Positions 13,148-30,176 of a DNA stretch of 38,940 bases are shown here, in pieces. The DNA is from Lachnospiraceae bacterium (GTDB lineage Bacteria > Bacillota > Clostridia > Lachnospirales > Lachnospiraceae). Position 1 is the first letter of the stretch. The number at the start of each line of letters is the position of its first letter. Where the stretch lies: assembly GCA_017461775.1 (NCBI GenBank), contig JAFTXD010000144.1:1-38940 (forward strand). The letters are read 5' to 3'. Both the position numbers and the translations under genes were made by a program. The notes beneath the pieces are model-generated. The model worked only from the letters and a program-made list of their open reading frames with translations. It was not told the origin of the DNA and did no database searches.

Positions 13148-13816
13148 ATGAAATTAACAGAATGGAGCTTAACAGAAGATTTTTGGGGGAATGTACAGGC
13201 CCATGGTTATGTAACCGGTCATCACAGACTGGCAGAGGGGGATTGGATTCATACCAGCAAGGTGCTTTCCATAGAATCCAGCGAGGTGCAGGGGAGTATT
13301 AAGATGCACACCTACTCAGGAAGCCTGTATGAGCTTTCCGTGGTTGATATAGATATTTCTGCTGCTGAAAAGACAAGCGAATTAGCACAAAAAATGGGGC
13401 TTTCCGAAAATGTTTGTCAGGAGATAATTCATTGCGGAAAAGAAAAAGTGGAAGACCTCCGAAGAAGTGTTTCAGAGCAAATAAAGGAGCGAGAGCTATA
13501 TTTGACATTTCGGGGAGTAAATGTGAAGAATGCCTTTTGGAAATCGGCATCGGGAGAGTGCCGGGAAGTGGGTATTTCCTGCCATGTAGGGATGATTCAG
13601 GATTCCATGCTGATTCGGGACAGTAAAGATCGAGAACTGGATTTTCGTTATTTCCCGGGATGGGGAGAAATCAGGCCTTACGCATGGAGTAATGGACGGG
13701 AGGCTGTATGGATTGATAATCAATCGGATGTGGATTTTATATTTCGGACAGAAACAGAGAGCATTACCTGCCCGGGAGGGGAGAAAATTAGAATTGAAAA
13801 GAAAGAAAAGGTATAA
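13148..13816 (+). CDS. Unknown protein, single copy of locus domain X
   Basis: 222 residues, no signal peptide or membrane segment. I do not recognise the family. Two segments match the N-terminal part of the 577-residue protein at 18243-19976: near residues 22-60 both have a His, then I-x-TSK and a later MHT/IHT box followed by a Tyr and an acidic pair; near residues 150-215 both have DSKD, an RY pair, a Tyr/Trp-rich strand and an NQS box. A shared beta-rich domain, here called X, is therefore likely. The middle (residues 70-115) is charged and helical. The start has AAGGAGC 7 nt upstream. It is the first gene after the locus promoter and overlaps the next small gene. Confidence 0.8.
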   Translation: MKLTEWSLTEDFWGNVQAHGYVTGHHRLAEGDWIHTSKVLSIESSEVQGSIKMHTYSGSLYELSVVDIDISAAEKTSELAQKMGLSENVCQEIIHCGKEKVEDLRRSVSEQIKERELYLTFRGVNVKNAFWKSASGECREVGISCHVGMIQDSMLIRDSKDRELDFRYFPGWGEIRPYAWSNGREAVWIDNQSDVDFIFRTETESITCPGGEKIRIEKKEKV

Positions 13817-13967
13817 GTTACTGGAAAAGCATAAGGCCTCGGCGGAGGAAAAACAGCGGTATGAAAAGATTTTTGCCACAGAAAAAGAAAAATTTGTCCG
13901 AGATTCTTTGGCGGGTGGCGTATCAGAAAATGGTCATTATGTGAGGTTACATGACCGATATATTTAG
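13794..13967 (+). CDS. Small basic unknown protein
   Basis: 57 residues from TTG 13794, preceded by a purine-rich GGGAGGGGAG box. It overlaps the end of the previous gene by 23 nt. The composition is very rich in Lys, Arg and Glu (first residues KRKKRYKLLEKHK), predicted helical, with a conserved-looking tail NGHYVRLHDRYI. The same tail, as NGQYVRAHDRYI, occurs in a decayed copy at 20022-20081, which supports the idea that this is a real gene. It could bind nucleic acid or a partner protein; no family is recognised. Confidence 0.6.
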   Translation: MKRKKRYKLLEKHKASAEEKQRYEKIFATEKEKFVRDSLAGGVSENGHYVRLHDRYI

Positions 13968-13997
13968 AAGGAACTATTGTCAAAGAAGGAGTAGAAA

Positions 13998-15209
13998 ATG
14001 GAAAAAAGATATGAAAATTTTATGTATTTGATGAAGATTCTGGATGATTCCGAGGGAGATAGAGATTCGGAGGTAGGCTCCTTTAGTTTTCTCTGGGACA
14101 AGTCCTATGTGCGGGAGGTAGTAAGTAGTCCCAGTATAAAGACGAGTATTGCTGGTCTGAAGACCTTTCTGGCTACGGAGGTGCTGGGGATTTTTGGTGC
14201 AAAAAATGAGTCCAATCTGACTTACAGAGATATGCAGGCACAGTTAAGTGGTGATAGCAAGGCGAAAAAGTACAGCTTTAATTTTGAATTTCTGGATGAT
14301 TGCTTTGATATTGAGAAGAATAGAGAGGCCATGCTTAGGGAGTGTCAGGAGCTTCCGGAGGAAGAAGGAATTCGTAAAAGCCTTGAGCAGGCGCAAATCT
14401 TGATACCATATCTGTTTATGGACAGACTGCGGGAGGTGGTGTGGAATAAGCTGAGAGCTTTTTTCAAGCTTTGTAACCAGACGACCTGTAGTGAATGCGA
14501 GAAAAAGAGTGAGGTGTATTTCCAGTTTATCCAGGCCGTTGCTCTGTATGAGATTTTTTACATCGAGTTTGTACAGGAAAAGGCGGCCTTTCTTGTAGAG
14601 GAAAGTATGGTATCTATCCGGAAAGCGGAAGAGGAGGTTGCAAGACTTGGAAAGCAGGGAGAACTGCTGGGCAACTGTGAAGATATGCCTGCGGAAGAGC
14701 TGGTACTTTCCGTGCAGGAGCTGGCAACAGGATATCAGAATATCTGGAATAATCTCCTGGAGGACAAGGTTTGGCATGTAGGGATATTCCAGCTGTTGAT
14801 TGCTGAGTTTGGCATCAGCTTAAACGCTATGTGTTATCTGTTGATGATTTTAGAGGCCATGAATGTGTGCAACGGGAAAATGCGAGGACTGAAGAATATC
14901 AGTGTGCAGATTCAGAAGAACCTGTCCAATATTTATGAAAAGGACTTAGAGATTTTACAGAATTACAATAAGAAAAGGGCAAAGCGTTATCGCCAGGTGA
15001 ATGTGAAGCTGGAATCGGTTTTGGAGAAGTATATCTGGTCGGAGTATCAGCAATATGATGAGGCAGCCATAATATATGCTTTTATGGAGGAGCTTTGCAT
15101 GCCCTTAAAGGAGCGAGACAAAAAAACACTTCGTGGCCTGGAATGTATGCTGGGATATCCGGTTTATAAGGAGCTTGAGAAGAAGGAGGATAATCCTTCG
15201 GAAAGGTGA
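13998..15209 (+). CDS. Unknown helical protein, paralog 1 of family Y
   Basis: 403 residues, largely helical, no signal peptide, no recognised family. It is clearly homologous along its whole length to the 413-residue protein at 16999-18240. Shared landmarks: an N-terminal FSFLWD segment; LDDC-DIEKN near residue 95; a cysteine cluster with spacing C-x4-C-x2-C (CNQTTCSEC here, CDQKTCSNC in the paralog); directly after it the identical FIQAVALYEIFYIE; and a C-terminal IYAFMEELC followed by YPVY. The Cys cluster may bind metal or form a redox site (inference). It follows the small basic gene by 30 nt and is closed by a strong terminator. A third, internally deleted copy is at 20169-20284. Confidence 0.85.
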   Translation: MEKRYENFMYLMKILDDSEGDRDSEVGSFSFLWDKSYVREVVSSPSIKTSIAGLKTFLATEVLGIFGAKNESNLTYRDMQAQLSGDSKAKKYSFNFEFLDDCFDIEKNREAMLRECQELPEEEGIRKSLEQAQILIPYLFMDRLREVVWNKLRAFFKLCNQTTCSECEKKSEVYFQFIQAVALYEIFYIEFVQEKAAFLVEESMVSIRKAEEEVARLGKQGELLGNCEDMPAEELVLSVQELATGYQNIWNNLLEDKVWHVGIFQLLIAEFGISLNAMCYLLMILEAMNVCNGKMRGLKNISVQIQKNLSNIYEKDLEILQNYNKKRAKRYRQVNVKLESVLEKYIWSEYQQYDEAAIIYAFMEELCMPLKERDKKTLRGLECMLGYPVYKELEKKEDNPSER

Positions 15210-15231
15210 TTTTCCAAAGGAAAAGGCATGG

Positions 15232-15268
15232 TACTGTAGCATTGGAAAAGGATGCTACAGTATTTTTT
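15232..15268 (+). terminator. Terminator, copy 1 of a locus-specific family
   Basis: TACTGTAGCAT (15232-15242) and ATGCTACAGTA (15252-15262) form a perfect 11-bp stem followed by six T. The 3' half and T-run are shared with the terminator at 21553-21599. Confidence 0.9.
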
Positions 15269-15330
15269 ACAGGACAATCAAATCAAAGAGGGAAGGGATG
15301 GAGTTTGATGCAAAATCCGAGCCATAGGGG

Positions 15331-15358
15331 GTGAAACTTAAGGGGAAATTATTATAAT
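15331..15358 (+). promoter_or_regulatory. Possible promoter of the ParA-like gene
   Basis: A consensus TATAAT at 15353-15358, 35 nt before the start; the -35 candidate GTGAAA (16-nt spacer) is poor. It lies after a terminator, so a promoter is expected here. Confidence 0.4.
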
Positions 15359-15393
15359 TAAGATATAGATAAAGCATAGGAGATGGGAGCTGG

Positions 15394-16125
15394 ATGAAGA
15401 CAATAACCTTTATGAACCAGCTTGGTGGTACCGGAAAGACTACCAGTGCATGGGCATTAGGAACCGGATTACAGAAAAAAGGCTATAAGGTTTTGTTGGT
15501 GGATTTGGATTGTCACAGAAATCTGACATCCAGAGCAGGTCTTGACCAGAAGGGCGTAGCAGACAGCATTTACGAGGTTTTTCAGGGAAAGGTTGATGTT
15601 GAGAATGCAATATATTTCCTGAACCCTGGTTTGGATATCCTAATAGGAAGTCTGCATTTATTCGGGGCAGGGCAGGAGTTTGTACAAGGGAACAAGGAGG
15701 CTATGCTGAAAGAGCAGCTGGAGAAGGTACAGACCGGATATGATTACTGCATTATTGATACAGAATCACGTATAAATCTGCTGCTGGTCAGTGCGCTGAC
15801 GGCAAGTGATGGTGTGATAATACCTATGCAGGATGAGGAATATGCTCTGAACGTTATGGAGGATTTGATGAAGATCATGGATTATGTTACTAAGGAGTGC
15901 AATCCTATCCTAAAGATAGAAGGCTTTCTGATGATGAATTTCAGAAAGGTGGTCCCACAAGAGGTATTGCTTAGAACAGAGGAAATAGCAAAACAAATCG
16001 GTACAAAGGTATTTCATACCATAATACGTTCTACTGTTCGGGCAGAAGAACTGGCATTATGTGACTATAAGAACTTTGTAGAGGAATTTCTGGAAAATCA
16101 GAAGGAAGGAGGGACTGGGCAATGA
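15394..16125 (+). CDS. ParA/MinD-type P-loop ATPase with altered signature lysine
   Basis: 243 residues. The N-terminus is MKTITFMNQLGGTGKTT: the deviant Walker A of ParA/MinD proteins is KGGxGKT, but here the first (signature) Lys is Leu while the P-loop Lys is kept. LLVDLDCHRN gives the usual switch I/A' Asp, and DYCIIDTESRINLL is the Walker B region with the typical PP-type loop replaced. ParA proteins move DNA or protein cargo through ATP-dependent dimerisation; without the signature Lys dimer-dependent hydrolysis may be altered (inference). No parB is nearby, so partition is unlikely. Its stop overlaps the next start by 4 nt. Confidence 0.85.
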   Translation: MKTITFMNQLGGTGKTTSAWALGTGLQKKGYKVLLVDLDCHRNLTSRAGLDQKGVADSIYEVFQGKVDVENAIYFLNPGLDILIGSLHLFGAGQEFVQGNKEAMLKEQLEKVQTGYDYCIIDTESRINLLLVSALTASDGVIIPMQDEEYALNVMEDLMKIMDYVTKECNPILKIEGFLMMNFRKVVPQEVLLRTEEIAKQIGTKVFHTIIRSTVRAEELALCDYKNFVEEFLENQKEGGTGQ

Positions 16126-16817
16126 TTTACCTGGTAGGTGACACTCATGGCACATTTGATTTGGACAAGGTACTGGACTTTTTCGAGATAGAAGTGCTAC
16201 TCAGAGACGTTAGCAAGGAGGATTATTTGATAATTTTGGGGGATGTGGGCGTCTGCTGGGATGGCGGAGAAAAGGATGCCTGGGTGCTTAAAAAGTTGCG
16301 GGAGCTTCCGGTGACGGTGCTGTGGCTGGATGGCAACCATGAGAATTTCGACCTGCTTAGGGAATATCCGGTGACAGAGTGGAATGGTGGCAAGGTACAG
16401 CGGATTGCACCGGATGTGATTCATTTGATGCGGGGCTACGTTTATTATATTGAGGGGAAGCTTTTTTGGGTATTTGGCGGTGGTATGTCCGTGGATAAGA
16501 TATGGCGAAGGGAAGGCATCAGCTGGTGGAAGGAAGAGATGCCCTCCTACGAGGAGTATGACAGAGGCCTGGATAATTTGCAGAAGGCAGAGTTTCAGGT
16601 GGATTATATTCTGACCCACACCGCACCCCGGAAGGTGGCGGAGCAGCTGGTGGATGTAATGCTGCCCGGAGAAGAGGCGTTGCAGTATTATTTGCAGGAT
16701 GTGGCCGAGAGAACCAGCTTTGCAGGGTGGTATTTTGGTCACTGGCATATGGACAAAGTAGTGGATGAGAAATTTTATGGATTGATGGAAGAGATTGTCA
16801 GACTTCTAGAGCAGTAG
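16122..16817 (+). CDS. Calcineurin-like metallophosphoesterase
   Basis: 231 residues with all the metal motifs of the family in order: GDTHG (Asp7, His9), LGDVGVCW, GNHEN, THTAP and GHWHMD. Such enzymes hydrolyse phosphomono- or diesters (proteins, nucleotides or nucleic acids) using two metal ions. The substrate cannot be told. An ATGA overlap with the ParA-like gene shows a two-gene operon. No signal peptide, so cytoplasmic. It ends 20 nt before the antisense tRNA gene. Confidence 0.9.
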   Translation: MIYLVGDTHGTFDLDKVLDFFEIEVLLRDVSKEDYLIILGDVGVCWDGGEKDAWVLKKLRELPVTVLWLDGNHENFDLLREYPVTEWNGGKVQRIAPDVIHLMRGYVYYIEGKLFWVFGGGMSVDKIWRREGISWWKEEMPSYEEYDRGLDNLQKAEFQVDYILTHTAPRKVAEQLVDVMLPGEEALQYYLQDVAERTSFAGWYFGHWHMDKVVDEKFYGLMEEIVRLLEQ

Positions 16818-16837
16818 GGGATTTGAGCAATAAAAAA

Positions 16838-16907
16838 GCAGATAACGGGAGTCGAACCCGCCTCTCCGGCTTGGGAAGCCAGCGTTCTACCGATGAACCA
16901 TATCTGC
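16838..16907 (-). tRNA. tRNA-Gly (anticodon CCC)
   Basis: The reverse strand folds as a standard 70-nt tRNA: a 7-bp acceptor stem (GCAGATA/TATCTGC), D stem GTTC/GAAC, anticodon stem CTGGC/GCCGG with loop TTCCCAA (anticodon CCC, reading GGG), a 4-nt variable loop and T arm GCGGG/CCCGT around TTCGACT. CCA is not encoded. A T-run lies directly downstream on the minus strand and can end transcription. Confidence 0.93.
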
Positions 16908-16915
16908 ATGAGATT

Positions 16916-16943
16916 ATTATAGCACTTAGGCAGGCAACTGCAA
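16916..16943 (-). promoter_or_regulatory. Promoter of tRNA-Gly
   Basis: On the minus strand TTGCAG (16938-16943), a 16-nt spacer and TATAAT (16916-16921), just upstream of the tRNA. Confidence 0.65.
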
Positions 16944-16998
16944 GTAAAAAATGAAAAGAAGGTCGCAGGAATAGACATAAAGAGAGGAAATAGACTAT

Positions 16999-18240
16999 AT
17001 GAAAGATGCAAGAAGCAGTTTTTTTAATGCGTTGATGAGAATTTTGGATAATGCAGAGGGAACAAGAGACACCACATACGGCCCCTTTAGCTTTCTTTGG
17101 GATAATTCCTATGTGAAAAAGGCTGTTGTCAGCAGCTTTGAAACAAGCACCAGTATTACCGGTCTGAAAATGTTTTTGGCAAAGAATGTTTTAAAAATGT
17201 ATACAGAAAGAAATAAGAGGAAAGAGGATAAGAAGGGGGGAGATATCACTCTGAGCCAGCTTACGGCAATTGTAAATGGGACTGCAAAGGATCATAAATA
17301 CTATATTGATTATACTATTTTAGATGATTGTATTGATATTGAAAAGAATAAGAAGGCTATGCTGGAAAAAATGCATGCACCTATCGATGATGCAGATATG
17401 ATCAAGTTTGTTCAAGACAGTAATATGTGGTTTCCTTACATTTTTGTGGACAGGCTTAGGGATGAGGTATGGTTTTGGCTGAGAGAATTTTTCAAGCTTT
17501 GTGACCAGAAAACCTGTAGTAACTGTGTAAACAAGAGTTTGGTTTATTTTAAATTTATCCAGGCTGTTGCGCTGTATGAGATTTTTTATATTGAGCTGGT
17601 GCAGGAATACGCGGCGGAGTATGTGGAGCAGGTGTTGTCCTTCCCAAAGAGTGCATTACAGAAAATGGAGAGCATTAATTGGCTGGTAGAGGGACTGGAA
17701 AAGGATGAACGAAATCAGCAGATGGAAAAGGTTTTGCAGACACAGGAGCTTCTTGAAGAGATAAAGGATATTTTTGGAGAAGACACAGAAGAGGAAAGCA
17801 TGGAAATGTGTATACATAAACTGCTGGTTTTTCAGCTGCTGGATATAGAATTTGCTGTAAGCCTTCTCGCCATGTGTGACTTGTTGATGATTTTTGAAGC
17901 CATGCATGTGTGTGACCCCAGTATGAGAGGGATGGAACACCTTAGTTTTGAGATTGGCAAAAGATTGGATAAAATTTTTGAAAAGGAGCTGGCGACTTTA
18001 GAAAACTCCAATGCAAAAAGATATAAGCGTTATCGGGAAGTGAACCTGAAGCTGGAGGAAATGCAGAAAAATCAGTTTCCGTCCCAGGAGGATTTGGACA
18101 TTGCAACAACAATTTACGCATTTATGGAGGAGCTTTGTAAGCCTGTGGGAATGCGGGATAGAGATCTGTTTAGAGGCTATGAGATGCTTTTGGCATATCC
18201 GGTTTACAGAGGTGCGGATTCGTTTGGGAAGAAGGAATAG
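16999..18240 (+). CDS. Unknown helical protein, paralog 2 of family Y
   Basis: 413 residues, full-length paralog of the protein at 13998-15209. The shared features are FSFLWD near residue 30, LDDC-DIEKN, the C-x4-C-x2-C cluster (CDQKTCSNC), the identical FIQAVALYEIFYIE, AMCDLLMIFEAMHVC and the IYAFMEELC/YPVY end. It differs mainly by an insertion near residues 72-85 (charged, KEDKKGG). GAGAGGAAA lies about 9 nt upstream of ATG. It begins a new gene group after the antisense tRNA and is followed 2 nt later by the large domain-X protein. No function is known to me. Confidence 0.85.
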   Translation: MKDARSSFFNALMRILDNAEGTRDTTYGPFSFLWDNSYVKKAVVSSFETSTSITGLKMFLAKNVLKMYTERNKRKEDKKGGDITLSQLTAIVNGTAKDHKYYIDYTILDDCIDIEKNKKAMLEKMHAPIDDADMIKFVQDSNMWFPYIFVDRLRDEVWFWLREFFKLCDQKTCSNCVNKSLVYFKFIQAVALYEIFYIELVQEYAAEYVEQVLSFPKSALQKMESINWLVEGLEKDERNQQMEKVLQTQELLEEIKDIFGEDTEEESMEMCIHKLLVFQLLDIEFAVSLLAMCDLLMIFEAMHVCDPSMRGMEHLSFEIGKRLDKIFEKELATLENSNAKRYKRYREVNLKLEEMQKNQFPSQEDLDIATTIYAFMEELCKPVGMRDRDLFRGYEMLLAYPVYRGADSFGKKE

Positions 18241-18242
18241 AC

Positions 18243-19976
18243 ATGGAAACTGTATTAAAGCACTGGTACATAGAAATGCAGTTCGGAGGTAGGACAAAGA
18301 TTGCCAGAGGAAATGTATTTCATTCTCCTAAATTTGTAAACAATCAAAATATATCAACGTCCAAAATCGCAAAAATTGTTAAAGACGATATTAGGGAGTG
18401 TTTAGAAATTCATACGAAAAACTCTATCTATTACTGCTATTGGAGAGACTGTGATTTTGAAAGCTGCCGTGCAGATAGCAAATATATACCGGATTTTGAG
18501 AAGTATCGGAAGCGCTATGTGGAGGAGGCATTGCTTCCGATAGAAAAAGATAGCATTGTACTTGTCTCTCGCAGTAGGGAGAATTATTTTCCCTATGTCT
18601 TTTATTGTCAGGAAAAAGGCGTGTGTATGCAGGATTTGTATCTGGAGAATGTACCGATTATTATCCCCTTGGATTCGAAAGATGAGGCACCTTTGGAGGC
18701 AGAGATTCGCTATAGTTATCAGCAAAGAAAACAGTATTGCATATACTACATGGATATACCGGATGGAGTGACCTTGTATGTGGAGAATCAAAGTGAAAAA
18801 GCAATTCAAGTCTGTAATGGTGGGGACATTATTGACATTGCAGCAGGAGCGCGCAAAGAGGTAATGACCGGCTACCAACCGGATTATTTGGAGCTTGCAA
18901 GGGATAGTAGAATGCTGCCAAAGAAGATGGAGCAGTTTGATGAGAGAGCTGTTATTCAGGAGCTGAATCATAATGGTGGTACAAATCTCTATAAAACATA
19001 TATGATTACCCGCAAATGGTATGAAAAGAATGAAGACGGGGTACAGGATGAGAGAATTCAGTTACTTGCCGCTGGTGCTGTGGCAATGGCGTTACTCACC
19101 CATAATTACGAGCTTGCAAAGCAGCTTGTGGAAGCAGGGGTCTCTTTTGCATTGGAAGATTCTATTATACTGCAGTTTTATAATACAAACGGACTGCGAA
19201 TGGCATCCACAGAGCTTGTACTGATGGAGTGGCTGGCAAGTAATTGGGAAATACCAGAGGATATATATACATTTCTTTGGTCCAAGGCAAGAGAGCATAG
19301 TATGCTACCATTACAGAGTCCGCTGGAGCTTCGGCTCAATTATGAGGCAGTGGGTGACAGCGTACATAATGATATGATAAAGCAGCTACTGATATTGGAC
19401 AAGGTATGGAAGGAGGCCGCTGCGGAGTATCTTATGGCAGTGGCAGGATATTTTTTGAAAACAAAGCTCTCACCAAGCGAGGAAGTGTGGGATATAATGT
19501 TCGAAAAATTTTTGGATATGCGAAGATGCCTGATACAAAAAATAGTTTCGTTTTATATGCCGTGCCACCGTTACGGAGGTAGGGAAAAGATCATAGCATT
19601 TTGGAAAATATATATGCAGCATGAGGAGGCTGAGCAGGTAAAAATAACGCAAATCTATGTATTCCGAGAACAGCTGTCGGATCTATGCTCGGAGAAGGAA
19701 GATATGACATGGTTTCTTTCCATGCTTTTGGAGAAGGGAAGTAGTTTTGAAGAGCTGGAGCTTGGTGCAAGAGATGCCTGCGTACGATTTTTGCTGTTGC
19801 ACAAAGAAACATGTAATTATGTATGGAGCAGTTTGCTTTCTACGGATTTTATTCCTGCCATATATGTGGATGATTATATTACCAGTGTAAAGAATTCCAC
19901 TAAAAAATATTTGATTCCCCTTCTCGTATCTGCAAAATTTAAGGCAAAGGAGAATCCGGCTAAGATGATAACATAG
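18243..19976 (+). CDS. Unknown two-part protein: domain X plus helical-repeat tail
   Basis: 577 residues. The first ~215 residues match the whole of the protein at 13148-13816 (domain X: ISTSK near residue 38, LEIHT, DSKD near 142, NQSE near 182). The rest is helical, with the segment MALLTHNYELAKQLVEAG near residue 280, which matches MALLMGEYELAIALCEAG in the 396-residue protein at 22458-23648; both resemble ankyrin/HEAT-type repeats. A fusion of two modules that occur separately elsewhere in the locus is the simplest reading. No signal peptide or membrane helix. It starts 2 nt after the previous stop, with AAGGAA as ribosome site. Confidence 0.85.
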   Translation: METVLKHWYIEMQFGGRTKIARGNVFHSPKFVNNQNISTSKIAKIVKDDIRECLEIHTKNSIYYCYWRDCDFESCRADSKYIPDFEKYRKRYVEEALLPIEKDSIVLVSRSRENYFPYVFYCQEKGVCMQDLYLENVPIIIPLDSKDEAPLEAEIRYSYQQRKQYCIYYMDIPDGVTLYVENQSEKAIQVCNGGDIIDIAAGARKEVMTGYQPDYLELARDSRMLPKKMEQFDERAVIQELNHNGGTNLYKTYMITRKWYEKNEDGVQDERIQLLAAGAVAMALLTHNYELAKQLVEAGVSFALEDSIILQFYNTNGLRMASTELVLMEWLASNWEIPEDIYTFLWSKAREHSMLPLQSPLELRLNYEAVGDSVHNDMIKQLLILDKVWKEAAAEYLMAVAGYFLKTKLSPSEEVWDIMFEKFLDMRRCLIQKIVSFYMPCHRYGGREKIIAFWKIYMQHEEAEQVKITQIYVFREQLSDLCSEKEDMTWFLSMLLEKGSSFEELELGARDACVRFLLLHKETCNYVWSSLLSTDFIPAIYVDDYITSVKNSTKKYLIPLLVSAKFKAKENPAKMIT

Positions 19977-20021
19977 GGAGCGTTATTTCGGATAAATCAT
20001 CTAAGGAGGAAATGGAAGCTA

Positions 20022-20081
20022 TTGGCAAGCGGAGTAGCGGTAAACGGTCAATATGTGAGAGCGCATGACCGATATATTTAG
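20022..20081 (+). pseudogene. Remnant of the small basic gene
   Basis: Between two genes a short frame encodes LASGVAVNGQYVRAHDRYI then TAG. It matches the last ~19 residues of the small gene at 13794-13967 (LAGGVSENGHYVRLHDRYI), and the DNA is nearly identical over the last 30 bases. There is no start codon or full-length frame upstream, so only the 3' end survives. Confidence 0.75.
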
Positions 20082-20168
20082 AGGAAGAAATCATGGAGAA
20101 AGAATTGGGGTGGATATCCTTGGGGAAGTGGGATGACCGCAGATAATACAACAAGGAGGAGCGCAATA

Positions 20169-20284: not shown

Positions 20285-20297
20285 GAGAGGGATTAAT

Positions 20298-22331: not shown

Positions 22332-22349
22332 CCCATTTGGATGAAGGAG

Positions 22350-22362: not shown

Positions 22363-22391
22363 TAAGGGTACGAAAAATGCGTAAGAATATG

Positions 22392-22430
22392 ATACTGTAA
22401 CATCAGAAAATGGTGTTACAGTATTTTTTT
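22392..22430 (+). terminator. Terminator, copy 3 of the locus-specific family
   Basis: ATACTGTAACA and TGTTACAGTAT form a perfect 11-bp stem around an 11-nt loop, followed by T-run. It resembles the two earlier copies (TACTGTA start, TACAGTATTTTTT end). Confidence 0.88.
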
Positions 22431-22457
22431 GATGAGAAAATGGAGTGATTTATCCCT

Positions 22458-23648
22458 ATGGAAAACTATAGAGAGTACATGGAGTCTTGTCTTTCAAATG
22501 GTGAGAGGATGCCCTATCCCTATGAATTACACTGTATAGAACAAGTATTATCGAGGTTACAAGAGCTGCTGCTTGCTGCGGAGCCGGGATATGAAGCACC
22601 CTATATGCGGGAGGAAGCGTGCTTGCCTGAGCTGCTTTGGATAATCGCAGAGGGAGAAGTGCAGGAAAAGGGTTTTTATAGCTGGAATAAACCGGAGGGG
22701 GAGTTGGCGGTGGTTGCACCTCCCGGCCTTATGGCACTTCTAATGGGGGAATATGAACTGGCTATAGCACTTTGTGAAGCTGGGTTTGGCGGTGGTAGAA
22801 ATGATATTGCCTCTGAGCTTAGGCAGGAAGGGCAGACCTCCTTTCTGGGAGGAGGCTCCATCCGTTTTTGTGAGGCGTGTCTTTTGTGCCGGGATATGAC
22901 GAAAGAGCAGATTGCTTATTTTAAGGGGAAGGATTTTCTGGATGTTCTGAACCTTTGGCGGGAAAATGGAGACCAGTTTGCGGATGTATGCTTTTTTGTG
23001 GATAAACAGGTAGTGTGGGAGAATTTGTTTGGGATTTTGCAGAGAGTGAAGGAGGACGGGGAAGTATATGGTGATGTGGAGGATGTCCTCATCCTGATTT
23101 TATGGTACGCCTTGCGGATGGAGATGGATGTGGGAAATCCGACCTTTTGGTTAAGGCTATACAGCTTGTTTGCAGAGTCCGAGGTCTTGCCGGCGATTCC
23201 TCACACGCTTCACGCCTATGCAAAGGCTTACTACAGGGGTGAGGCGGGAATTTATAAGGAGCAGCATAGACTGCTTAACGGTATGGATATGTATTTTCGA
23301 TTTGCGGAGGCTATTAATATTCAGCATGTGGAGCTTTATATAACGGAGATTATTTTGAAGAAATGCGGCACCGGGAAAAAGGCAAGAGAATTTCGGCGGG
23401 TATATTTTTCTGTAATGAAGAAAATCGAGGGAGATATCACGGCAGAGTGGCTGGAGCATATGTTAGAGCTACTGAAAACAAAAGATTTTCCGCTGTTAGA
23501 GCAGGCGTTTCGAAGCGGCTTTCTGCGGGATGACTGTGTGGAGGATTATATCAGGTATTTCTTCCGGCATAAGGAGTATGCAGGGATAATACCTTATCTG
23601 CTACAGAGAAGGTGGAGAACGAAGGAGGATGCAAATGGGTGTGTATAG
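22458..23648 (+). CDS. Unknown helical-repeat protein related to the tail of the 577-residue protein
   Basis: 396 residues, helical, no signal peptide. Near residue 94 the segment MALLMGEYELAIALCEAG matches MALLTHNYELAKQLVEAG of the protein at 18243-19976, and the overall helix pattern is similar, so both share an ankyrin/HEAT-like scaffold. No enzyme motif is visible. It begins the gene group that continues with the two AAA+ ATPases and the VWA protein, overlapping the next start by 14 nt. A scaffold or adaptor for the ATPases is a reasonable guess, not shown by sequence. The ribosome site is weak (GGAG, 12 nt). Confidence 0.82.
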   Translation: MENYREYMESCLSNGERMPYPYELHCIEQVLSRLQELLLAAEPGYEAPYMREEACLPELLWIIAEGEVQEKGFYSWNKPEGELAVVAPPGLMALLMGEYELAIALCEAGFGGGRNDIASELRQEGQTSFLGGGSIRFCEACLLCRDMTKEQIAYFKGKDFLDVLNLWRENGDQFADVCFFVDKQVVWENLFGILQRVKEDGEVYGDVEDVLILILWYALRMEMDVGNPTFWLRLYSLFAESEVLPAIPHTLHAYAKAYYRGEAGIYKEQHRLLNGMDMYFRFAEAINIQHVELYITEIILKKCGTGKKAREFRRVYFSVMKKIEGDITAEWLEHMLELLKTKDFPLLEQAFRSGFLRDDCVEDYIRYFFRHKEYAGIIPYLLQRRWRTKEDANGCV

Positions 23649-25284
23649 AGAAAAACTGTCTGAATTGGCACCGGTAATTCGGCGCAGATATGAACGGAAG
23701 GGATCCGATGTAATGTGTCAGGTGCTCACCGTGGAGGGGTGGCTTAAGAAGTACTATGAATTAGAGTATTTAAAGGCTGTTACAGAGTATTTTGATTACA
23801 GTGATGGCTCACTTAATGATAAGCGTTTTTTTCTGATAACAGAGGAGGAGAATGTAGGAATAAAGGCAGCTTTTGCCATTATAAATTATCCTCTGTACGG
23901 ATGCTTGCAGGAGGATTATTGGTATGAAACAAAGGAGGAAGGTTCTGGCAATACGCTTACAAGGCTTGAAAGCATGAAGGAATATTCCTTTCTGCTGACC
24001 GGTGGGGTACCGGAAAAGGAGATTATGTACTTTACCGGATTAATGGAGGAGGAAAAGGATTTTGAACTGGGGACGAAGCTTCGCTGTATTATGGGGTGCC
24101 AGGCATCGCTTCAGTTTGTCCAGCTAAAGGAGGAGCAGCTGGATATGCCGTGGGCAAGAGAATTGTTAAAGAGTAAGGAGTGTGAAATTATTTACCTTCC
24201 GAAGTGTTCTGCTTCCTACTATCTGAGCGTTGCAGAACGATTGTTGGAGGGGGAGAGATATCGTTTGGATGAAGCCTTAAGCTTGGCAAAAATAGTACAC
24301 CATATTCAGAAGAAAAGTGGTAGTAAATTTGGAGAAGAGGATATGGCATGGAGTTTTGACCAGGCGGAGAAAAGCGCAAGGTGCAGGGGGGACTATCGCT
24401 ATATGATAATGAAGGATTTTAAGCTTGATTTTGGGAGTATCAGGTCCCCTTTGCAGGTGCTAAATGAGATGACAGGGCTCAGGGAGATAAAGCTGCTGGC
24501 CCGGGAAGTTGCGGCACTTCAAAGGGAGCAACTCCGCAATGAGAAACTGAAGGAGATTTGTAAGCATGTGATATTTGAGGGAAAACCGGGAACTGGCAAG
24601 ACCTTGTGCGGAAAACTTTTGGCGCAGATTATGTCGGAGCAGGGGCAGGCAAGTGGCAGCTTTGTACAGGCAACCCGGAAGGATATTATCGGAGAATATG
24701 TGGGCCAGACGGCACCCAAGGTAGCGAGTCTCTTTGCCAAGGCAAGGAGAGGAGTACTTTTTGTGGATGAGGCAGGTTTTTTTCTGCATGAGACAAGAAA
24801 CTCCTTCAATCAGGAAGCCGTGAAGGAGTTTGTAAGATATATGGAGCTATATCAGGATGTGATGGTTATCTTTGCCCTTTATCCCGGTGAGGTGGAGGAT
24901 TTCTTGGAGCTTGATGTGGGGCTTTCTTCCCGTATCAGCAGGGTGGTACCTTTTGAGGATTACTCAGAGCAGGAGCTTTTGGACATTACCAGAGGAATGT
25001 GTGAGACAAAGGGGTATCAGTTGGCAGAGGATTGTGAAGAAATGATTTGCGCTTATATGAAGGAGCGAAGAAGGAAGCTGGGAGATGAGTTTGGGAATGC
25101 CAGAGAGGGGCGCAAACTGGTGGAGGCAGCTGTCATTGCCAGAAGTATCCGGTGCTATGAAAAGGAGCCACCGGAGGAGATGCCATCTCTGACACCGGAG
25201 GATTTTTCCTATGGTATTAGGAGGCTTTATAAGGAATCCGGCAGAAAGGCGGCATCCATCGGATTCTTGGCAGGAGGAGTGTAG
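23635..25284 (+). CDS. AAA+ ATPase, CbbX/SpoVK type, with unknown N-terminal domain
   Basis: 549 residues from ATG 23635, which has AAGGAGG with 6-nt spacing; ATG 23629 touches that site and is less likely. Residues 1-270 match nothing I recognise. The C-terminal AAA+ module begins near residue 275 (LNEMTGLREIK), with Walker A GKPGTGKT at 316-323, a pore-type segment (IGEYVGQT), Walker B VLFVDEA (Asp378, Glu379), and an Arg-rich sensor region (LSSRISRVVPFEDYS). CbbX/SpoVK-type proteins are ring-forming remodelling ATPases, for example the Rubisco activase CbbX. Here the target is unknown. Tightly coupled with the preceding and following genes. Confidence 0.9.
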   Translation: MGVYREKLSELAPVIRRRYERKGSDVMCQVLTVEGWLKKYYELEYLKAVTEYFDYSDGSLNDKRFFLITEEENVGIKAAFAIINYPLYGCLQEDYWYETKEEGSGNTLTRLESMKEYSFLLTGGVPEKEIMYFTGLMEEEKDFELGTKLRCIMGCQASLQFVQLKEEQLDMPWARELLKSKECEIIYLPKCSASYYLSVAERLLEGERYRLDEALSLAKIVHHIQKKSGSKFGEEDMAWSFDQAEKSARCRGDYRYMIMKDFKLDFGSIRSPLQVLNEMTGLREIKLLAREVAALQREQLRNEKLKEICKHVIFEGKPGTGKTLCGKLLAQIMSEQGQASGSFVQATRKDIIGEYVGQTAPKVASLFAKARRGVLFVDEAGFFLHETRNSFNQEAVKEFVRYMELYQDVMVIFALYPGEVEDFLELDVGLSSRISRVVPFEDYSEQELLDITRGMCETKGYQLAEDCEEMICAYMKERRRKLGDEFGNAREGRKLVEAAVIARSIRCYEKEPPEEMPSLTPEDFSYGIRRLYKESGRKAASIGFLAGGV

Positions 25285-25288
25285 AGTG

Positions 25289-26572
25289 ATGAAAGAGGAA
25301 AACAGGCAGGCGCGGGAGTGGTTAAATATGGTATTGCTGGAGCTGAAAAGTCATTACAGTGAGCTGTTATATCCGCTGTCTGTTCTGATGTTTAAGGAGG
25401 CACCGGCGGGGAAAAGGGTGGATGGTATTGCTACGGATGGTGTTACCCTCTACTATGACCCGGATATCATTTTGCGGCAGGGCAGGGCACAGACGATGAA
25501 GCAAATCATGCATATCATGCTCCATGGATTATTGGGACATTTCCAGATAAAGGATGATTATAAGCAGCATATGCTTCGGGATTTGATGATGGATATACAG
25601 GCAGAGTACCTGCTTTCGAGGATAGGAGGAGTGGCTGCCGGACAAAGAGATTTTAGGGCTAACCAGTGGGATTCTTTGGTTCAGGGAGACTATTCCATGG
25701 GGAGCTATTATTGCCTGCTGGAAAAGAAAGAGCTGCATTCCAGGTTGGCACATTATCAATATGGATTGCGCGTGGATGACCATAGTATGTGGGATGAGGA
25801 TATGAGTGAAGGACACAGGCAAAAGGTCATGGAGCTGTGGGGAGAGATTCAGCAGGTCGTACTGGGGGAAAACGGGGAGGAAATGGATGGTTTAGCGGTC
25901 CTTGCGGGGACTTTTATGGGTAAGGGAAAAGGTGATAATGAGGAAAGCTTTGGCGTTGGGAAAGGAAGCGGGCGGAATTATAAGGAGCTTTTGGCAGAGT
26001 TATTTCGCCCTAAGGAAATCTGCCGTGAAGAGCCGGATTCCATTGACCATATGTTTTACAGCTATGGTCTGGAGCTTTACGGAGATGTTCCACTAATTGA
26101 ACCACTGGAGATAACGGAAAGGCCTGCACTCCATACACTGGCCATAGCAGTGGACGTAAGTGGCTCCTGCGTGTGTGATGAAATTATGGAGAAATTTTGG
26201 GGAGAGACATATGATTGTATCTCGCAGATAAAGGCTCAGCATGTAGAGGGTGAGGTGCTGCTTTTGCAGTGTGATGCTGGGATACAGGAGGAACAGAGGA
26301 TATGTCTGGCGGATTTTAATGAGAAGCCCGCAAAGATTGAGGTGAAGGGCTGGGGTGGCACCAGCTTTGTTCCTGTTTTTGAGAGACTTAAGGAGCTGGA
26401 AGCAGAGGATGGAAAGGTGGACGCACTGATTTATCTGACGGATGGGGATGGTGAATATCCGAAAGAAAAGCCGGATTATCCGGTGTATTTTGTACTTCCC
26501 AAGGAGGCGCTATCAAGTTGGTATGTAAAAGAGAAGATGCCGGAATGGATAAATAAGATTTGCCTGGAGTAG
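25289..26572 (+). CDS. Metallopeptidase-like/VWA protein (DUF2201-like)
   Basis: 427 residues. The N-terminal half resembles the putative metallopeptidase domain of DUF2201-type proteins: HIMLHGLLGH at residues 75-84 fits HExxH-x4-H in spacing, but the catalytic Glu is Ile76, so it may bind zinc without cutting. The C-terminal half is a VWA domain: MIDAS DVSGS at 289-293, the Thr in GWGGTSF and the Asp in YLTDGDGEYP. VWA proteins of this type work with MoxR ATPases, and one follows 15 nt downstream. GTG 25286 is an alternative start. No signal peptide, so cytoplasmic. Confidence 0.88.
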   Translation: MKEENRQAREWLNMVLLELKSHYSELLYPLSVLMFKEAPAGKRVDGIATDGVTLYYDPDIILRQGRAQTMKQIMHIMLHGLLGHFQIKDDYKQHMLRDLMMDIQAEYLLSRIGGVAAGQRDFRANQWDSLVQGDYSMGSYYCLLEKKELHSRLAHYQYGLRVDDHSMWDEDMSEGHRQKVMELWGEIQQVVLGENGEEMDGLAVLAGTFMGKGKGDNEESFGVGKGSGRNYKELLAELFRPKEICREEPDSIDHMFYSYGLELYGDVPLIEPLEITERPALHTLAIAVDVSGSCVCDEIMEKFWGETYDCISQIKAQHVEGEVLLLQCDAGIQEEQRICLADFNEKPAKIEVKGWGGTSFVPVFERLKELEAEDGKVDALIYLTDGDGEYPKEKPDYPVYFVLPKEALSSWYVKEKMPEWINKICLE

Positions 26573-26587
26573 AATGGAGGAATGTGA

Positions 26588-27763
26588 ATGAGCACAATAG
26601 CAGAAGCAAAAATGCATATTACAAACACAGTCAGACAGTATTTGTACAAGGATGAAAGTGGAAATTATGTCATGGTAGAGAGGAACCGTCAGCCCATTTA
26701 TCTGGAGGGGCCGCCGGGAATAGGCAAGACGGAGATTGTGGAGCAGGTAAGCAGGGAGCTGGGAATTGGCTATGTGGGAAGTAGTCTGGCTCACCTGACC
26801 CGCAATTCTCTGCTGGGACTTCCGGTGATTGAGGAGCTTGGAGACAGTAGGAAGTATACTACTTACACGGTTTCAGAGGTTCTTGCCATGGTTTATGAGA
26901 AGGTAGAACAGGGGTATAAGGAGGGAATTTTGCTGTTGGATGAGTTTGCCAGCACATCAGAAACCATTATGCCTACGATGCTGGGCTTTTTGCAGACGAA
27001 GAATATCGGAGTGCATACTCTTCCGGAGGGCTGGGTCATCGTTTTGTGTGGTAATCCTCCGGAGTATAACAGGACGGCGAGAAAATTTGACTGCGCGGTG
27101 CTGGATCGCATCCGCAAGATAACCATCGAATTTGATGCAAAGACATTTATTACCTATGGAAGGGAAATTGGCCTTGATAAGACGATTCTGGACTATCTGG
27201 AAGTACAGCCCACCCATGCATACAGATGTGTGGATAATGGCGGCGAGAAGGAGCTGGTAACCTGCAGGGGCTGGGAGAATTTGAGTCGTGCATACTCTAT
27301 TTACACGAGGCTGGAGCAGACCATAGATTTACAGATGGTAAAGCAGTTTATCAAGTCGGATGAGATTGCAGACAGCTTTATGGCTTATGTGAGACAGTGT
27401 AGCGTAGGAGTGAGCATTGAGGAAATGGATGAGATTCTTCGGGGAAGAGGCTTTGAGAAGAATCTGGAAAAGGTAAAGGGACTTACCTACAGGCAGCAGT
27501 GGCTGCTTTCCGAATATCTCTGCGAGCGGATGCTTACCAAGGAAACCAAGGAAGAGGCAGGACTTGGCAGGTATAAGGAGATTGCAGGCTGGATTGATAA
27601 TGTGCTGGATATGCTTTATGAGGTGGATGAGAAGGGTGTATTGTCAGAGAAGGTCTTTGGGTTTATTAATAAAAATGAGGAGCTTTTGAAGGTGGTGAGT
27701 AATGTGAAGTGTAGGAGGTATCTGGAGATGTGTGAGAAGGTGCTGGGGGACGTGGGAGCGTAA
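26588..27763 (+). CDS. MoxR-type AAA+ ATPase
   Basis: 391 residues. Walker A GPPGIGKT at 41-48, Walker B ILLLDEF at 114-120 and sensor 1 in VLCGNPPEYN, followed by LDRIRKITIEF with the likely arginine finger, all as in MoxR/AAA_5 proteins. These form hexamers that remodel complexes or insert cofactors together with VWA partners. The adjoining VWA gene supports a pair. The ribosome site is GGAGG with 7-nt spacing. It is the last gene of the tightly coupled group 22458-27763. Confidence 0.93.
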   Translation: MSTIAEAKMHITNTVRQYLYKDESGNYVMVERNRQPIYLEGPPGIGKTEIVEQVSRELGIGYVGSSLAHLTRNSLLGLPVIEELGDSRKYTTYTVSEVLAMVYEKVEQGYKEGILLLDEFASTSETIMPTMLGFLQTKNIGVHTLPEGWVIVLCGNPPEYNRTARKFDCAVLDRIRKITIEFDAKTFITYGREIGLDKTILDYLEVQPTHAYRCVDNGGEKELVTCRGWENLSRAYSIYTRLEQTIDLQMVKQFIKSDEIADSFMAYVRQCSVGVSIEEMDEILRGRGFEKNLEKVKGLTYRQQWLLSEYLCERMLTKETKEEAGLGRYKEIAGWIDNVLDMLYEVDEKGVLSEKVFGFINKNEELLKVVSNVKCRRYLEMCEKVLGDVGA

Positions 27764-27784
27764 GGAGCGGACTGGATACGTGTA

Positions 27785-27813
27785 TTGTCAGAGTGATTGA
27801 ATGGAGGTATAAT
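27785..27813 (+). promoter_or_regulatory. Strong predicted promoter within the locus
   Basis: TTGTCA at 27785-27790, 17 nt, TATAAT at 27808-27813, 87 nt before the next start. The last two genes of the locus can thus be expressed separately. Confidence 0.75.
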
Positions 27814-27899
27814 TTACATAAAGAGGTGTGATTTATGCAATATGGTTGTATAATATCAATTATAGCATTGGGAAGTCTGAAAAACGGAGGTGGCAGACA

Positions 27900-29198
27900 A
27901 TGATTCAGCGTCCAGAGATAATTTATGTGGAAGGTAAGCAACGAGATGCTATGCGGTCAGAGGGGTATGGCATAAAAATGTATGATGCGATAGGAGAAGA
28001 TAAAAGAGAGTTAACGTACGAAGTAGAGGAACTGAAGGAGTGGATAAGACTTGATAGAATAGTTGTATCTAACTTATGGTTGGATGCAAAGGGGATATTC
28101 AGACAGAAATCCTACGACGGAGATAGAGTAAAAAATGTGGCAGATGTGATAAATCGTGATTGCGCCGGCATGTTTGTGGCTATGTTGCATGAAGCGAAAA
28201 CGGATGCTGAAATGTGGAGGAAAATAGAGGAGAATAGTAAGGACGGTTTTGACATTGAAGCTGCTGAATGTTTTGAGGCATCAACGCGCATGGAAGGAGA
28301 CGTTTATAAATATTTCTATGGGTTGAAATTTAAGAATAAGCAGTGGGTTTGGTCATGTGCATTGGTTAAATGGAATAATGGTAACCCTGAAGTATCCAAA
28401 GATTCTATTAATGAAATAGTGAAATTAATGTTTTTGGCGTTTTATGTGCCCCAAAAGGAAGTAACCCTAGAAAATCTTATGTGCAGAAGAGGGCTACCGA
28501 TTACGTGTGAAATTCTGAAAGGTTATCAAGAAGAGTCAGGCTATACATACGGGTATGATATTAAGGGGCGCATGGAAGGTGAGGAGTATATACTAGAAAA
28601 GCTTCACGTCAGTGAACTGTGGAAGCTGGTTGACGAAGACAAAATTGTTTTTCCGGAATACTTTTTTAGAAAAGATAGAGATGGTAGCATCACGACTAAT
28701 AAATTATATAAGCGTGATCCGAAAAGAAAATTTGGAAAGGTTAAGCATGTGTTACAGGAGATTGGTTCTTATCTGCATAATATTAAAGATATTGACAGAA
28801 ACGAATACTATAAAGGGCCTAGGGACGATTGGGATAAGGCTCATAATAGAGCCAATTCTCTGAAAGATGCTAGGCAGGTTTCCTTTGATGGTTACGTATA
28901 TTTATCGGAATTACGGCCTAAAATGCTTGGAGAGAAGCTTATATTATATGTCAAGGATATTCCACTTGTCACGTTGATGGTAGGCGAGTTGTCTATTGAT
29001 AGGAGGTATTTGCTTACAATGGACATCAGTGGAAGGTCTGTCCTGCATATGCGTTTAGAAGAAGAATGGGATCGTTTTTACCAGCAGTATTGTCTGGTGG
29101 AGAGAGACATAGGGGCGATGTTGGAAGTACTGGATACTGAGGTGATGATAGCGATGGAAAGTATCGTAGAGAATGAGGGAGCAGTATACAAGGAGTGA
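27900..29198 (+). CDS. Unknown protein upstream of the cold-shock-domain gene
   Basis: 432 residues from ATG 27900 (GGAGG 9 nt upstream; the open frame extends to 27828 but over promoter sequence). No signal peptide, no membrane helix, no family that I recognise. The composition is charged and Trp/Tyr-rich, mixed alpha/beta, with a basic region near residues 265-300 (LYKRDPKRKFGK). It is AT-richer than the ATPase genes before it. It is cotranscribed with the cold-shock-domain gene 6 nt downstream, which suggests a role linked to nucleic acid, but this is inference. Confidence 0.8.
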   Translation: MIQRPEIIYVEGKQRDAMRSEGYGIKMYDAIGEDKRELTYEVEELKEWIRLDRIVVSNLWLDAKGIFRQKSYDGDRVKNVADVINRDCAGMFVAMLHEAKTDAEMWRKIEENSKDGFDIEAAECFEASTRMEGDVYKYFYGLKFKNKQWVWSCALVKWNNGNPEVSKDSINEIVKLMFLAFYVPQKEVTLENLMCRRGLPITCEILKGYQEESGYTYGYDIKGRMEGEEYILEKLHVSELWKLVDEDKIVFPEYFFRKDRDGSITTNKLYKRDPKRKFGKVKHVLQEIGSYLHNIKDIDRNEYYKGPRDDWDKAHNRANSLKDARQVSFDGYVYLSELRPKMLGEKLILYVKDIPLVTLMVGELSIDRRYLLTMDISGRSVLHMRLEEEWDRFYQQYCLVERDIGAMLEVLDTEVMIAMESIVENEGAVYKE

Positions 29199-29204
29199 TG
29201 TGGT

Positions 29205-30176
29205 ATGAGGGATAAGCCAAGAAAGAATATAATATTTGTTTCTAAGCCATCATGTGCAAATAGGGAAATTAAGGAAGAAAACAAAGTGGTTGTGCAGCAG
29301 GCGGAGGCTGAGGAAGATAAGTACGTGGAGGGCACAATAAAGTTTTTCAATAAGGAAAAGGGATACGGTTTTATCAAAGAGCAGGCGAAAGCTACGGATG
29401 TATTTTTTCACATTTCGAAAGTGAATATCAATGAAAAGGATTTCTTTTATTCCTGGTATGATAAGGAACAGAAATATGCAAAGGTACTATATAAAGTGCT
29501 GGATGGAACAAAAGGATCGGAAGCAAGCGATATTTATTTTTGTGGTGGGGGTTCTGAGGGAAGACGGTTCTGGTATGATAGAGAGGGGAAGCTTCGATAC
29601 TATTCAGGAAAGGATTGCAAGCTGAGGGAAGTTCTTACCTTTTACGATGGAACTGTGTATGCTGAGAAGAATGGTAGCGTTTTAGAAAAGGATTCTGTGA
29701 GTACAACAAATATTGAGATGCTGTTTGAAAAAGGGGAAATCGACACACTGCGGAGCTTTTCAAATCAGGAGAATAAGCTTGAACTTAGGGAGGGCCGATT
29801 TAATTTTGTGTCCTCATGCAATCGGGAAAAATTCTTTAAGTGGGCAAACATCCCACTGGATAGCGAGGAAGCACTAGATTTCGCAAAGCAAAAGGGAGGC
29901 TATATTCTCAGAAGGGCCATAACTTTTTATTTGCAAACAAAGGATTGGGATGCAGATGGCTGGGGGTTAGAAGATTTGGAATCAACAAAAACAGAAGCTA
30001 TCGTTGAGATTCATTCACTGGTTTATTATAATATCGTTAAGTCATGGGGAGATGGTTATGTTTTAGATTCTCATGACGTAAAGCGTATCTGTGACACAAA
30101 GGTTTTTCGAGCGTATCATAGAATTCCTTTGGAAGAGGGACTTTCTACTTTGTTGGATATATTGTTCGAGAATTAA
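29205..30176 (+). CDS. Cold-shock-domain protein with large unknown C-terminal part
   Basis: 323 residues. After a ~40-residue charged N-terminus, residues 41-75 form a cold-shock (OB-fold) domain: EGTIKFFNKEKGYGFI contains RNP1 (KGYGFI, 52-57) and VFFHI (66-70) is RNP2, the two single-strand nucleic-acid binding motifs. Ordinary CspA proteins have ~67 residues, so the remaining ~245 residues are an extra part that I do not recognise; it is mixed alpha/beta, with strands such as YFCGGGSEGRRFWYDREGKL and a helical end. Binding RNA or single-stranded DNA is likely. Last gene of the accessory locus. Confidence 0.85.
   Translation: MRDKPRKNIIFVSKPSCANREIKEENKVVVQQAEAEEDKYVEGTIKFFNKEKGYGFIKEQAKATDVFFHISKVNINEKDFFYSWYDKEQKYAKVLYKVLDGTKGSEASDIYFCGGGSEGRRFWYDREGKLRYYSGKDCKLREVLTFYDGTVYAEKNGSVLEKDSVSTTNIEMLFEKGEIDTLRSFSNQENKLELREGRFNFVSSCNREKFFKWANIPLDSEEALDFAKQKGGYILRRAITFYLQTKDWDADGWGLEDLESTKTEAIVEIHSLVYYNIVKSWGDGYVLDSHDVKRICDTKVFRAYHRIPLEEGLSTLLDILFEN

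Follow-up and report, generated by a model that had tools for sequence, protein, structure and literature searches.

The 38,940-nt window analyzed here (the whole stretch of DNA under study, which makes up the entire contig C121 of a draft Lachnospiraceae genome, 82% complete in 172 contigs) contains a four-gene core, namely E396–CbbX–VWA–MoxR (22458–27763), which constitutes a rare Lachnospiraceae module. This core resides in a 17-kb block between dapF and potA, and the block is a composite accessory island, not one system. For the core itself we propose, tentatively and with somewhat less than even confidence, that the MoxR–VWA pair and a repeat adaptor would hand clients to a CbbX-type unfoldase feeding ClpP, a reading drawn from gene sequence and arrangement. 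The core genes are as follows:

22458..23648, + strand: E396, a repeat-type partner with a ~50-aa adaptor module assigned at its end (hidden Markov model (HMM) and hhalign)
23629..25284, + strand: CbbX/SpoVK-type AAA+ protein with a ~270-aa N-domain and a C-terminal IGF (Pfam and NCBIfam)
25289..26572, + strand: DUF2201-type VWA protein (Pfam DUF2201, 2.4e-14, scanned from a longer 25211 start)
26588..27763, + strand: short (391 aa) MoxR-type AAA+ protein (Pfam AAA_22, 4.5e-7)

Recurrence of the core in Lachnospiraceae

A search of 101 genus genomes returned a sole close match to the window MoxR, in genome G228 (44% over nearly the entire protein), where the operon order is three repeat proteins, VWA, MoxR, and CbbX. 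When named genomes were scanned with the window and G228 MoxRs, 190 stretches matched, ten of which encode a relative, all in Lachnospiraceae. Together with the window, these ten loci (L100–L109, L102 being the G228 contig) comprise our core set (n = 11), in which HMMs detected both VWA and MoxR in all 11 loci, the CbbX N-domain in 10, adaptor/repeat proteins in 7, WYL regulators in 5, and ClpP in 3. The VWA–MoxR–CbbX trio occurs, with small order changes, in 9/10 of the other loci, and a repeat/adaptor protein in 6/10. The possibility, raised by an earlier sequence-only reading, that the genes of the block travel together is thus borne out for the trio, whereas the ParA-like, metallophosphoesterase, C428, F456, and cold-shock genes were not seen with the core elsewhere. 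Plain BLAST with the window protein recovered the CbbX gene in 8/10 relatives (33–41% identical); the L104 contig holds only the CbbX start, and the L108 contig ends within the VWA gene. The two WYL proteins that were scanned matched Pfam at 2.6e-6 (L102) and, just under the cut-off, at 2.7e-4 (L104), the others being assigned by BLAST cluster.

The arrangement of the core and its surroundings varies. CbbX precedes VWA in the window, L100, and L109; follows MoxR in L101–L105; and lies between VWA and MoxR in L106 and L107. The loci occupy different insertion sites (addAB, secA/prfB, ribosomal genes, and murF, with names read by eye), and the genes 3' of the core differ from locus to locus. Because the CbbX N-domain was found in 1/397 family genomes, namely the window's own (the sample comprised roughly one genome per genus), we consider the module to be both rare and patchy.

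MoxR–VWA itself is ordinary in Lachnospiraceae, since it is common across family genomes and regions. A MoxR match (E <= 0.001) was obtained in 116/200 family genomes, some of the matches being weak and some of other MoxR types; a VWA gene lay within ~2.1 kb of MoxR in 20/20 regions, and a further protein belonging to one cluster lay nearby in 17/20. This third protein is LRR_5-type in the one scanned, and an example of the common trio is found at L033 7493–11285 (third protein, VWA, and ~500-aa MoxR). The common MoxRs, mostly ~500 aa, can be aligned to the window MoxR over roughly residues 4–320. The CbbX N-domain, adaptor, WYL, and ClpP were detected in 0/20 common-pair loci (HMMs; six frames), and one common-pair locus, L048, matched the full CbbX model (2e-10), the matching protein reading as FtsH. 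Since these HMMs were built from the core loci, it is the neighbourhood, and not detection, that counts as evidence.

In a 39-row MoxR tree, a 100/100 branch separates nine core MoxRs from the other rows. This tree omits the L060, L061, L062, and L109 rows of a first, 43-row tree, in which the variant label stood at two changes and the 185-aa fragment from L060 lay at the root; the L103 MoxR, masked by a reverse-strand ORF, is absent from both trees. The 39-row tree and the gene neighbourhoods rule out that the core is the plain common pair of the family. Further, E396 showed no convincing match to the third protein of the common pair (hhalign, E396-canon: E 0.027, probability 1.8%; c5-canon: E 0.0065, probability 5.8%).

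Components of the core and a putative link to ClpP

The second AAA+ protein of the core, whose start we place at 23629 (23635 in the sequence-only reading), matches Pfam AAA (1.5e-12) and AAA_lid_6 (2.1e-8). In NCBIfam, it is nearest to SpoVK/CbbX (3e-49 and 6.7e-43, both far under the curated cut-offs), with FtsH models at 5.9e-6. When its N-domain was compared with its own AAA domain, hhalign aligned the two over the lid region (E 0.0015 at a probability of 17%, against 0.12 for the reversed control), a hint that the N-domain may be a degenerate AAA domain of the kind described for the FtsH subtype by Kaur et al. (PMC7159879). Against solved structures, the N-domain gave a single match (E 0.16).

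All eight complete CbbX-type proteins carry a hydrophobic-Gly-Phe tripeptide (3 IGF, 2 FGF, and 3 YGF; IGF in the window), which falls 8–16 residues from the C-terminus in a single alignment column, while the surrounding tail varies (L101 is incomplete, and L104 was left out of this alignment). A corresponding [ILVMFY]GF within the last 35 residues was found in 15/381 other ORFs (>=200 aa, from core and common-pair loci) and in 0/7 other complete-ended CbbX-type proteins from the genus. In PMC8745299, (L/I/V)-G-(F/L) is given as the motif, located in a loop, with which ClpX docks ClpP. A ClpP gene is present in 3/11 core loci, and the two copies that were scanned match Pfam ClpP at 2.5e-74 and 4.1e-61. 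The catalytic triad of ClpP consists of Ser, His, and Asp, and these residues are readable in all three locus-encoded copies. L105 carries MoxR, ClpP, and CbbX in that order, 14–15 bp apart. On account of (i) the GF tail, (ii) the locus-encoded ClpP, and (iii) the L105 arrangement, we suggest that the CbbX-type AAA+ is a putative ClpP unfoldase. The window has the GF tail and no ClpP of its own, so the cell's ClpP would be needed there.

The window VWA protein has an intact MIDAS (DVSGS; DxSxS) and, in its N-domain, an HxxxHxxxxH motif that lacks the catalytic Glu (HIMLH). This motif, as well as a later His and two Trp, is invariant in 15/15 aligned rows. Among 45 different VWA sequences (63 rows), 43 contain HxxxHxxxxH, the remaining two being N-truncated, and the Glu of a metallopeptidase HExxH is missing in 42 of these 43. 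The exception is the second VWA of L109, where another type of MoxR–VWA pair follows the core (14151–16813; HExxH present, DUF2201_N 7e-34). The DUF2201 match of the window protein reaches residue 432 of a 453-residue frame, with no Pfam family beyond it, and the VWA alignment matched no solved structure at E <= 0.1. An "HNH endonuclease" PHROG also matched the VWA protein at 25289 (1.7e-24); we take this label to be wrong, since the match spans residues 279–406, which are the VWA domain. In two further loci from genus relatives, L059 and L060, neither the VWA domain nor the ATPase domain of MoxR remains, while the N-domain histidines and the MoxR C-terminal part are kept, the VWA N-domain being fused to or near the MoxR C-terminal part (L059 9531–10496; L060 1434–3453). 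Because both loci keep these two parts, the VWA N-domain and the MoxR tail may function alone, and the remnants perhaps represent a minimal functional form rather than decay.

A ~50-aa C-terminal module is common to the repeat proteins of the relatives and to 153–167-aa proteins beside the core. When its profile was run on 746 ORFs, the best non-seed match was A577, encoded upstream of the core in the window (E 2e-4; domain 0.0071). Next came one protein from L060, a decayed locus (0.11), then one unrelated ORF (0.22), and after these E396 (0.28; domain 5). Four sequences were then added to the profile by eye and each left out in turn, which gave E-values of 1.4e-4 for A577, 2.7e-4 for E396 (domain 0.0012, aa 338–383), 1.8e-4 for a 430-aa L059 protein, and 0.0056 for L060, with unrelated ORFs reaching 0.0076 (L038) and 0.049 (the window metallophosphoesterase). 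E396 also gave a profile match to a 559-aa core neighbour in L100 (38 columns, E 3.7e-5, probability 71%), and pairwise hhalign scores among the adaptor proteins were mostly weak. Because of the shared module, A577 and, less surely, E396 appear tied to the core, and this modest adaptor signal may be analogous to the effector-associated domains of Kaur et al. A577 is thus a possible accessory part of the core system.

Proposed pathway, described systems, and rival explanations

In the pathway that we propose, (i) the MoxR ring and its VWA partner would remodel a complex held by the repeat proteins, which might recognize clients through their repeats and dock through the shared ~50-aa C-terminal module; (ii) the client would pass to the CbbX-type AAA+ and be unfolded; and (iii) the C-terminal (I/F/Y)GF of this AAA+ would dock ClpP, either locus-encoded or the cell's own, with degradation of the client. 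Phage or stress may serve as the trigger, and the module may accordingly be an undescribed system of defence or of protein quality control. MoxR–VWA pairs are widespread and their targets are known for few; since the pair travels here with a candidate ClpP unfoldase, and sometimes with ClpP, the module offers a concrete and testable proteolysis pathway. If the pathway is correct, CbbX/SpoVK-type AAA+ proteins would be able to serve as protease partners, and if the defence context described below is causal, a ClpP-coupled system would be added to bacterial immunity.

Several observations weigh against this proposal. The docking loop of ClpX is internal to the chain, whereas the CbbX tripeptide lies in a C-terminal tail; moreover, its first position is F or Y in 5/8 copies, outside the published (L/I/V). 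The window core has no ClpP or WYL gene nearby. The adaptor was not found in L100, L109, L101, or L108 (the last two being 3.3- and 6.9-kb contigs), and the link between E396 and the other repeat proteins is one of weak profile scores. In the 43-row tree, the L109 MoxR groups with the common ones (82/80). Lastly, since L102/L103 and L106/L107 are close pairs, the core loci amount to about six independent cases.

Among described systems, the nearest are those of Kaur et al. 2020 (PMC7159879), in which a chaperone pair of MoxR and vWA is accompanied by additional conserved components. As in those systems, the MoxR and vWA genes lie together here (25289–27763 in the window, and in 11/11 core loci), and the FtsH subtype likewise adds a second classical AAA+ protein; its third component has two AAA domains, of which the first is inactive. 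Here, in contrast, the AAA+ is CbbX/SpoVK-type and not FtsH; the VWA is DUF2201-type and bears no fused effector; the module includes repeat/adaptor proteins, joined in some loci by WYL and ClpP; and the ten relatives are all from Lachnospiraceae. The VMAP subtype has the MoxR N-terminal motifs WxhapG and PsWRxa, whereas the window MoxR has no Trp before its P-loop, and no VMAP family was found by Pfam. Effector domains stand C-terminal to vWA in the VMAP and iSTAND subtypes, and Pfam shows none here. Nor did Pfam detect in the block a STAND gene, the (inactive) third component of the iSTAND subtype, a sub-cut-off nSTAND3 match being the CbbX-type AAA. As for the beta-propeller subtype, bpMoxR (PF20030) scored 14.3 bits against a cut-off of 27, and the VWA protein contains no propeller family. 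In its working, the core resembles a MoxR–vWA system, but it lacks several of the features that define the subtypes described so far. The main text of PMC7159879 does not mention CbbX, SpoVK, ClpP, leucine-rich, ankyrin, or clostridia, and the open-licence literature accessible to us, including the available parts of PMC7159879 and PMC12839542, yielded no earlier report of the core module.

The common Lachnospiraceae pair has homologous VWA and MoxR proteins with the same His motif; it differs in its mostly ~500-aa MoxR, in having no CbbX N-domain, ClpP, WYL, or adaptor, and in lying separate from the nine core MoxRs. ClpXP/ClpCP-type proteases share with the core an AAA+ having a GF docking-like tripeptide, and the core loci contribute ClpP genes as noted; their difference is that the core AAA+ is CbbX-type, with the tripeptide in its tail and a MoxR–VWA pair attached, and that its docking on ClpP is putative. 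RavA–ViaA and NorQ–NorD likewise combine a MoxR ring with a VWA partner, but their clients are known, and we know of no CbbX, repeat protein, or ClpP alongside them.

The first alternative, a conflict system of the Kaur type, holds that MoxR–VWA and CbbX restrain an effector (A577, B403/B413, or F456, all encoded in the block) and release it upon invasion, ClpP being merely regulatory. It gains from the neighbours of the core within 3 kb, which PADLOC assigned to PsyrTA in L100 (PsyrT 1.4e-250, PsyrA 1.4e-86), to ZacA (1.4e-5), ZacB (1e-23), and ZacC (2.5e-146) in L107, a combination that we take to be Azaca, and to a two-gene restriction set in L105 (2.6e-47 and 5.6e-11); a GIY-YIG protein (2.9e-7) lies equally near in L106. 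The 40 flanking proteins of seven core loci matched 33 PADLOC families, with the three systems, generic helicase matches (GajB and DpdF), and IetA among the 25 listed. The control consisted of 110 proteins that flank 13 common-pair loci; at 1e-20 these matched nine families with one protein each (SspA, DndA, three RtcR models, dGTPase, MzaA, mad3, and PDC-S33), which, judging from their names, are single genes or housekeeping relatives. A multi-gene defence system thus lies near the core in 3/7 loci versus 0/13 common-pair loci, a difference that is suggestive only. The variable genes after the core, the WYL regulator in 5/11 loci, and the STAND NTPases (L059, L092) and type IV restriction enzyme (L091) near B genes point the same way. 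Against this, no effector domain was recognized in the unassigned proteins (Pfam, PADLOC, and PHROG), no further domain follows the VWA domain in the window protein, the position at which the VMAP systems of Kaur et al. bear effectors, and the 13-locus control likewise gave single strong PADLOC matches. A defence role is suggested by the neighbours in three loci, and we consider the release of a restrained effector to be rather doubtful as the explanation.

A bolder version of our own proposal is an ATP-driven immune protease, in which MoxR–VWA (with its pseudo-metallopeptidase domain) and swappable, adaptor-joined repeat proteins would sense invaders and pass proteins to a CbbX-type unfoldase that commandeers ClpP by its IGF-like tail, with the A/B cassettes and STAND proteins as plug-in modules; we hold this to be unlikely. 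Less likely still is a maturation chaperone for a dedicated enzyme or complex, without a conflict role, which is how the MoxR–VWA pairs studied to date work (RavA–ViaA; NorQD, PMC13036017), since the module is patchy (1/397 family genomes for the CbbX N-domain), its sites differ among species, and the loci showed no candidate enzyme travelling with the core. Finally, a mere insertion hotspot with unrelated neighbours would suit the variable dapF–potA interval and the ParA-like, metallophosphoesterase (MPE), C428, F456, and cold-shock-domain (CSD) genes, none of which was seen with the core elsewhere, but it is improbable as a general account, being already refuted for the core by the recurrence of the trio (9/10) and the repeat/adaptor protein (6/10).

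The island and its other genes

The nearest relative found, G231 (locus L094), is 88% identical in an ANTAR protein, 94% in dapF, and 90% in potA. Its DNA aligns to window positions 12120–12975, stopping 7 bases past dapF, and picks up again at 30469. In place of the block, G231 has one 183-aa ORF between the dapF and potA ORFs, which are 789 bp apart, and this agrees with the sequence-only reading of the block as accessory. G231 yielded no MoxR match (search of 101 genus genomes) and no B-family match (138 genus genomes). Because two further relatives, L096 and L097, carry different genes between dapF and potA, this interval is a variable site. The insertion and the features outside the core are as follows:

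12976..30468, no strand: accessory insertion between dapF and potA (DNA alignment with G231)
13148..13816, + strand: A222, A-domain protein (matches the L059 430-aa protein, E 9e-12)
13998..15209, + strand: B403, B-family protein (family in 5/138 genus genomes, including the window's)
15394..16125, + strand: ParA-like ATPase (Pfam AAA_31, 1.7e-42)
16122..16817, + strand: metallophosphoesterase, MPE (Pfam Metallophos, 2.5e-11)
16837..16907, - strand: tRNA-Gly(CCC)
16999..18240, + strand: B413, paralogue of B403 (45% identity)
18243..19976, + strand: A577, with an A-domain-like N-terminus, an ankyrin-like stretch, and a C-terminal adaptor module (adaptor HMM)
20207..20264, + strand: 3' remnant of a third B-family gene
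20262..21548, + strand: C428 (no Pfam or PHROG family; single PADLOC match, 0.043)
22011: ORF without a Pfam family at E <= 0.1
27828..29198, + strand: F456, seen in the window's genome only
29205..30176, + strand: cold-shock-domain protein, CSD (Pfam CSD, 4e-13)

The genes named in the sequence-only reading are present as ORFs at the positions it gives, and each one recognized there is backed by Pfam. Its description of a plus-strand block holds for the protein genes and fails for the tRNA. Eight ORFs lack a Pfam family at E <= 0.1 (13148, 13998, 16999, 18243, 20262, 22011, 22458, and 27828). As in the sequence-only reading, no toxin or nuclease family was found in the block (Pfam). PHROGs assigned the ParA-like, metallophosphoesterase, and cold-shock proteins, and ten other window proteins, when compared with PADLOC, matched known defence models by weak generic AAA scores at most, the best being IetA (5.6e-7) for the CbbX-type protein. 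The suggestion that the locus is a relative of vWA–MoxR systems stands insofar as other Lachnospiraceae also carry a MoxR–VWA core joined by an additional AAA+; it is not supported for the whole locus as one such system, as F456, ParA, MPE, C428, and CSD showed no link to the core. ParA, MPE, C428, and CSD had no match in the ten core loci (a genome-wide search was not made for them), and F456 had no relatives beyond the window's genome (1/200 family genomes, 1/101 genus genomes), an L107 match at E 0.009 being a ZacB-like protein that we take as chance.

The duplicated modules and decayed copies reported earlier were also recovered: B403 and B413 (13998 versus 16999) are 45% identical (E 5e-111), the B-gene remnant lies at 20207–20264, a 61-nt tail is repeated at 13908 and 20022 (79%), and two hairpin/T-run stretches (15228 and 22389) resemble each other at 78%. 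The N-terminus of A577 bears a weak likeness to A222 (E 0.028). Elsewhere, B genes neighbour a STAND protein (L059, L092) or lie near a type IV restriction enzyme (L091, 4.2e-103), with nothing telling in L090; in L059, they lie with the fused VWA/MoxR remnant and an adaptor-bearing A-domain protein. The A/B cassettes are thus tied to the core only via this partial locus and the C-terminal module of A577. The STAND-type NTPases (~1400–1485 aa; L059 5272–9462 and L092 10947–15404) are 52% identical over 936 aa and matched no PADLOC model at 1e-3.

A viral origin was rejected, as no relative turned up in viral_contigs when it was scanned with the window MoxR, with an alignment of two MoxRs, or with the B family. 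Phage (305 records) and plasmid (20 records) collections gave MoxR matches only, all below 60% identity; the best in the phage collection (39–45%) came from short records of faecal origin that are labelled "Bacteriophage sp." and carry no annotation.

The tRNA-Gly(CCC), which runs opposite to the gene direction, is the sole match in this draft genome, and no match was obtained in G231 at E <= 0.001 (a draft, 85% complete). Upstream of potA, a ~76-nt hairpin-bearing element is doubled (30186–30261 and 30484–30559, 92% alike), with what we judge by eye to be a short gene remnant in between; the G231 stretch has a single copy (1741–1819). At the contig start, 119–5056 encodes a protein of 1645 aa that looks secreted and contains List_Bact_rpt repeats (Pfam Flg_new, 9.7e-13).

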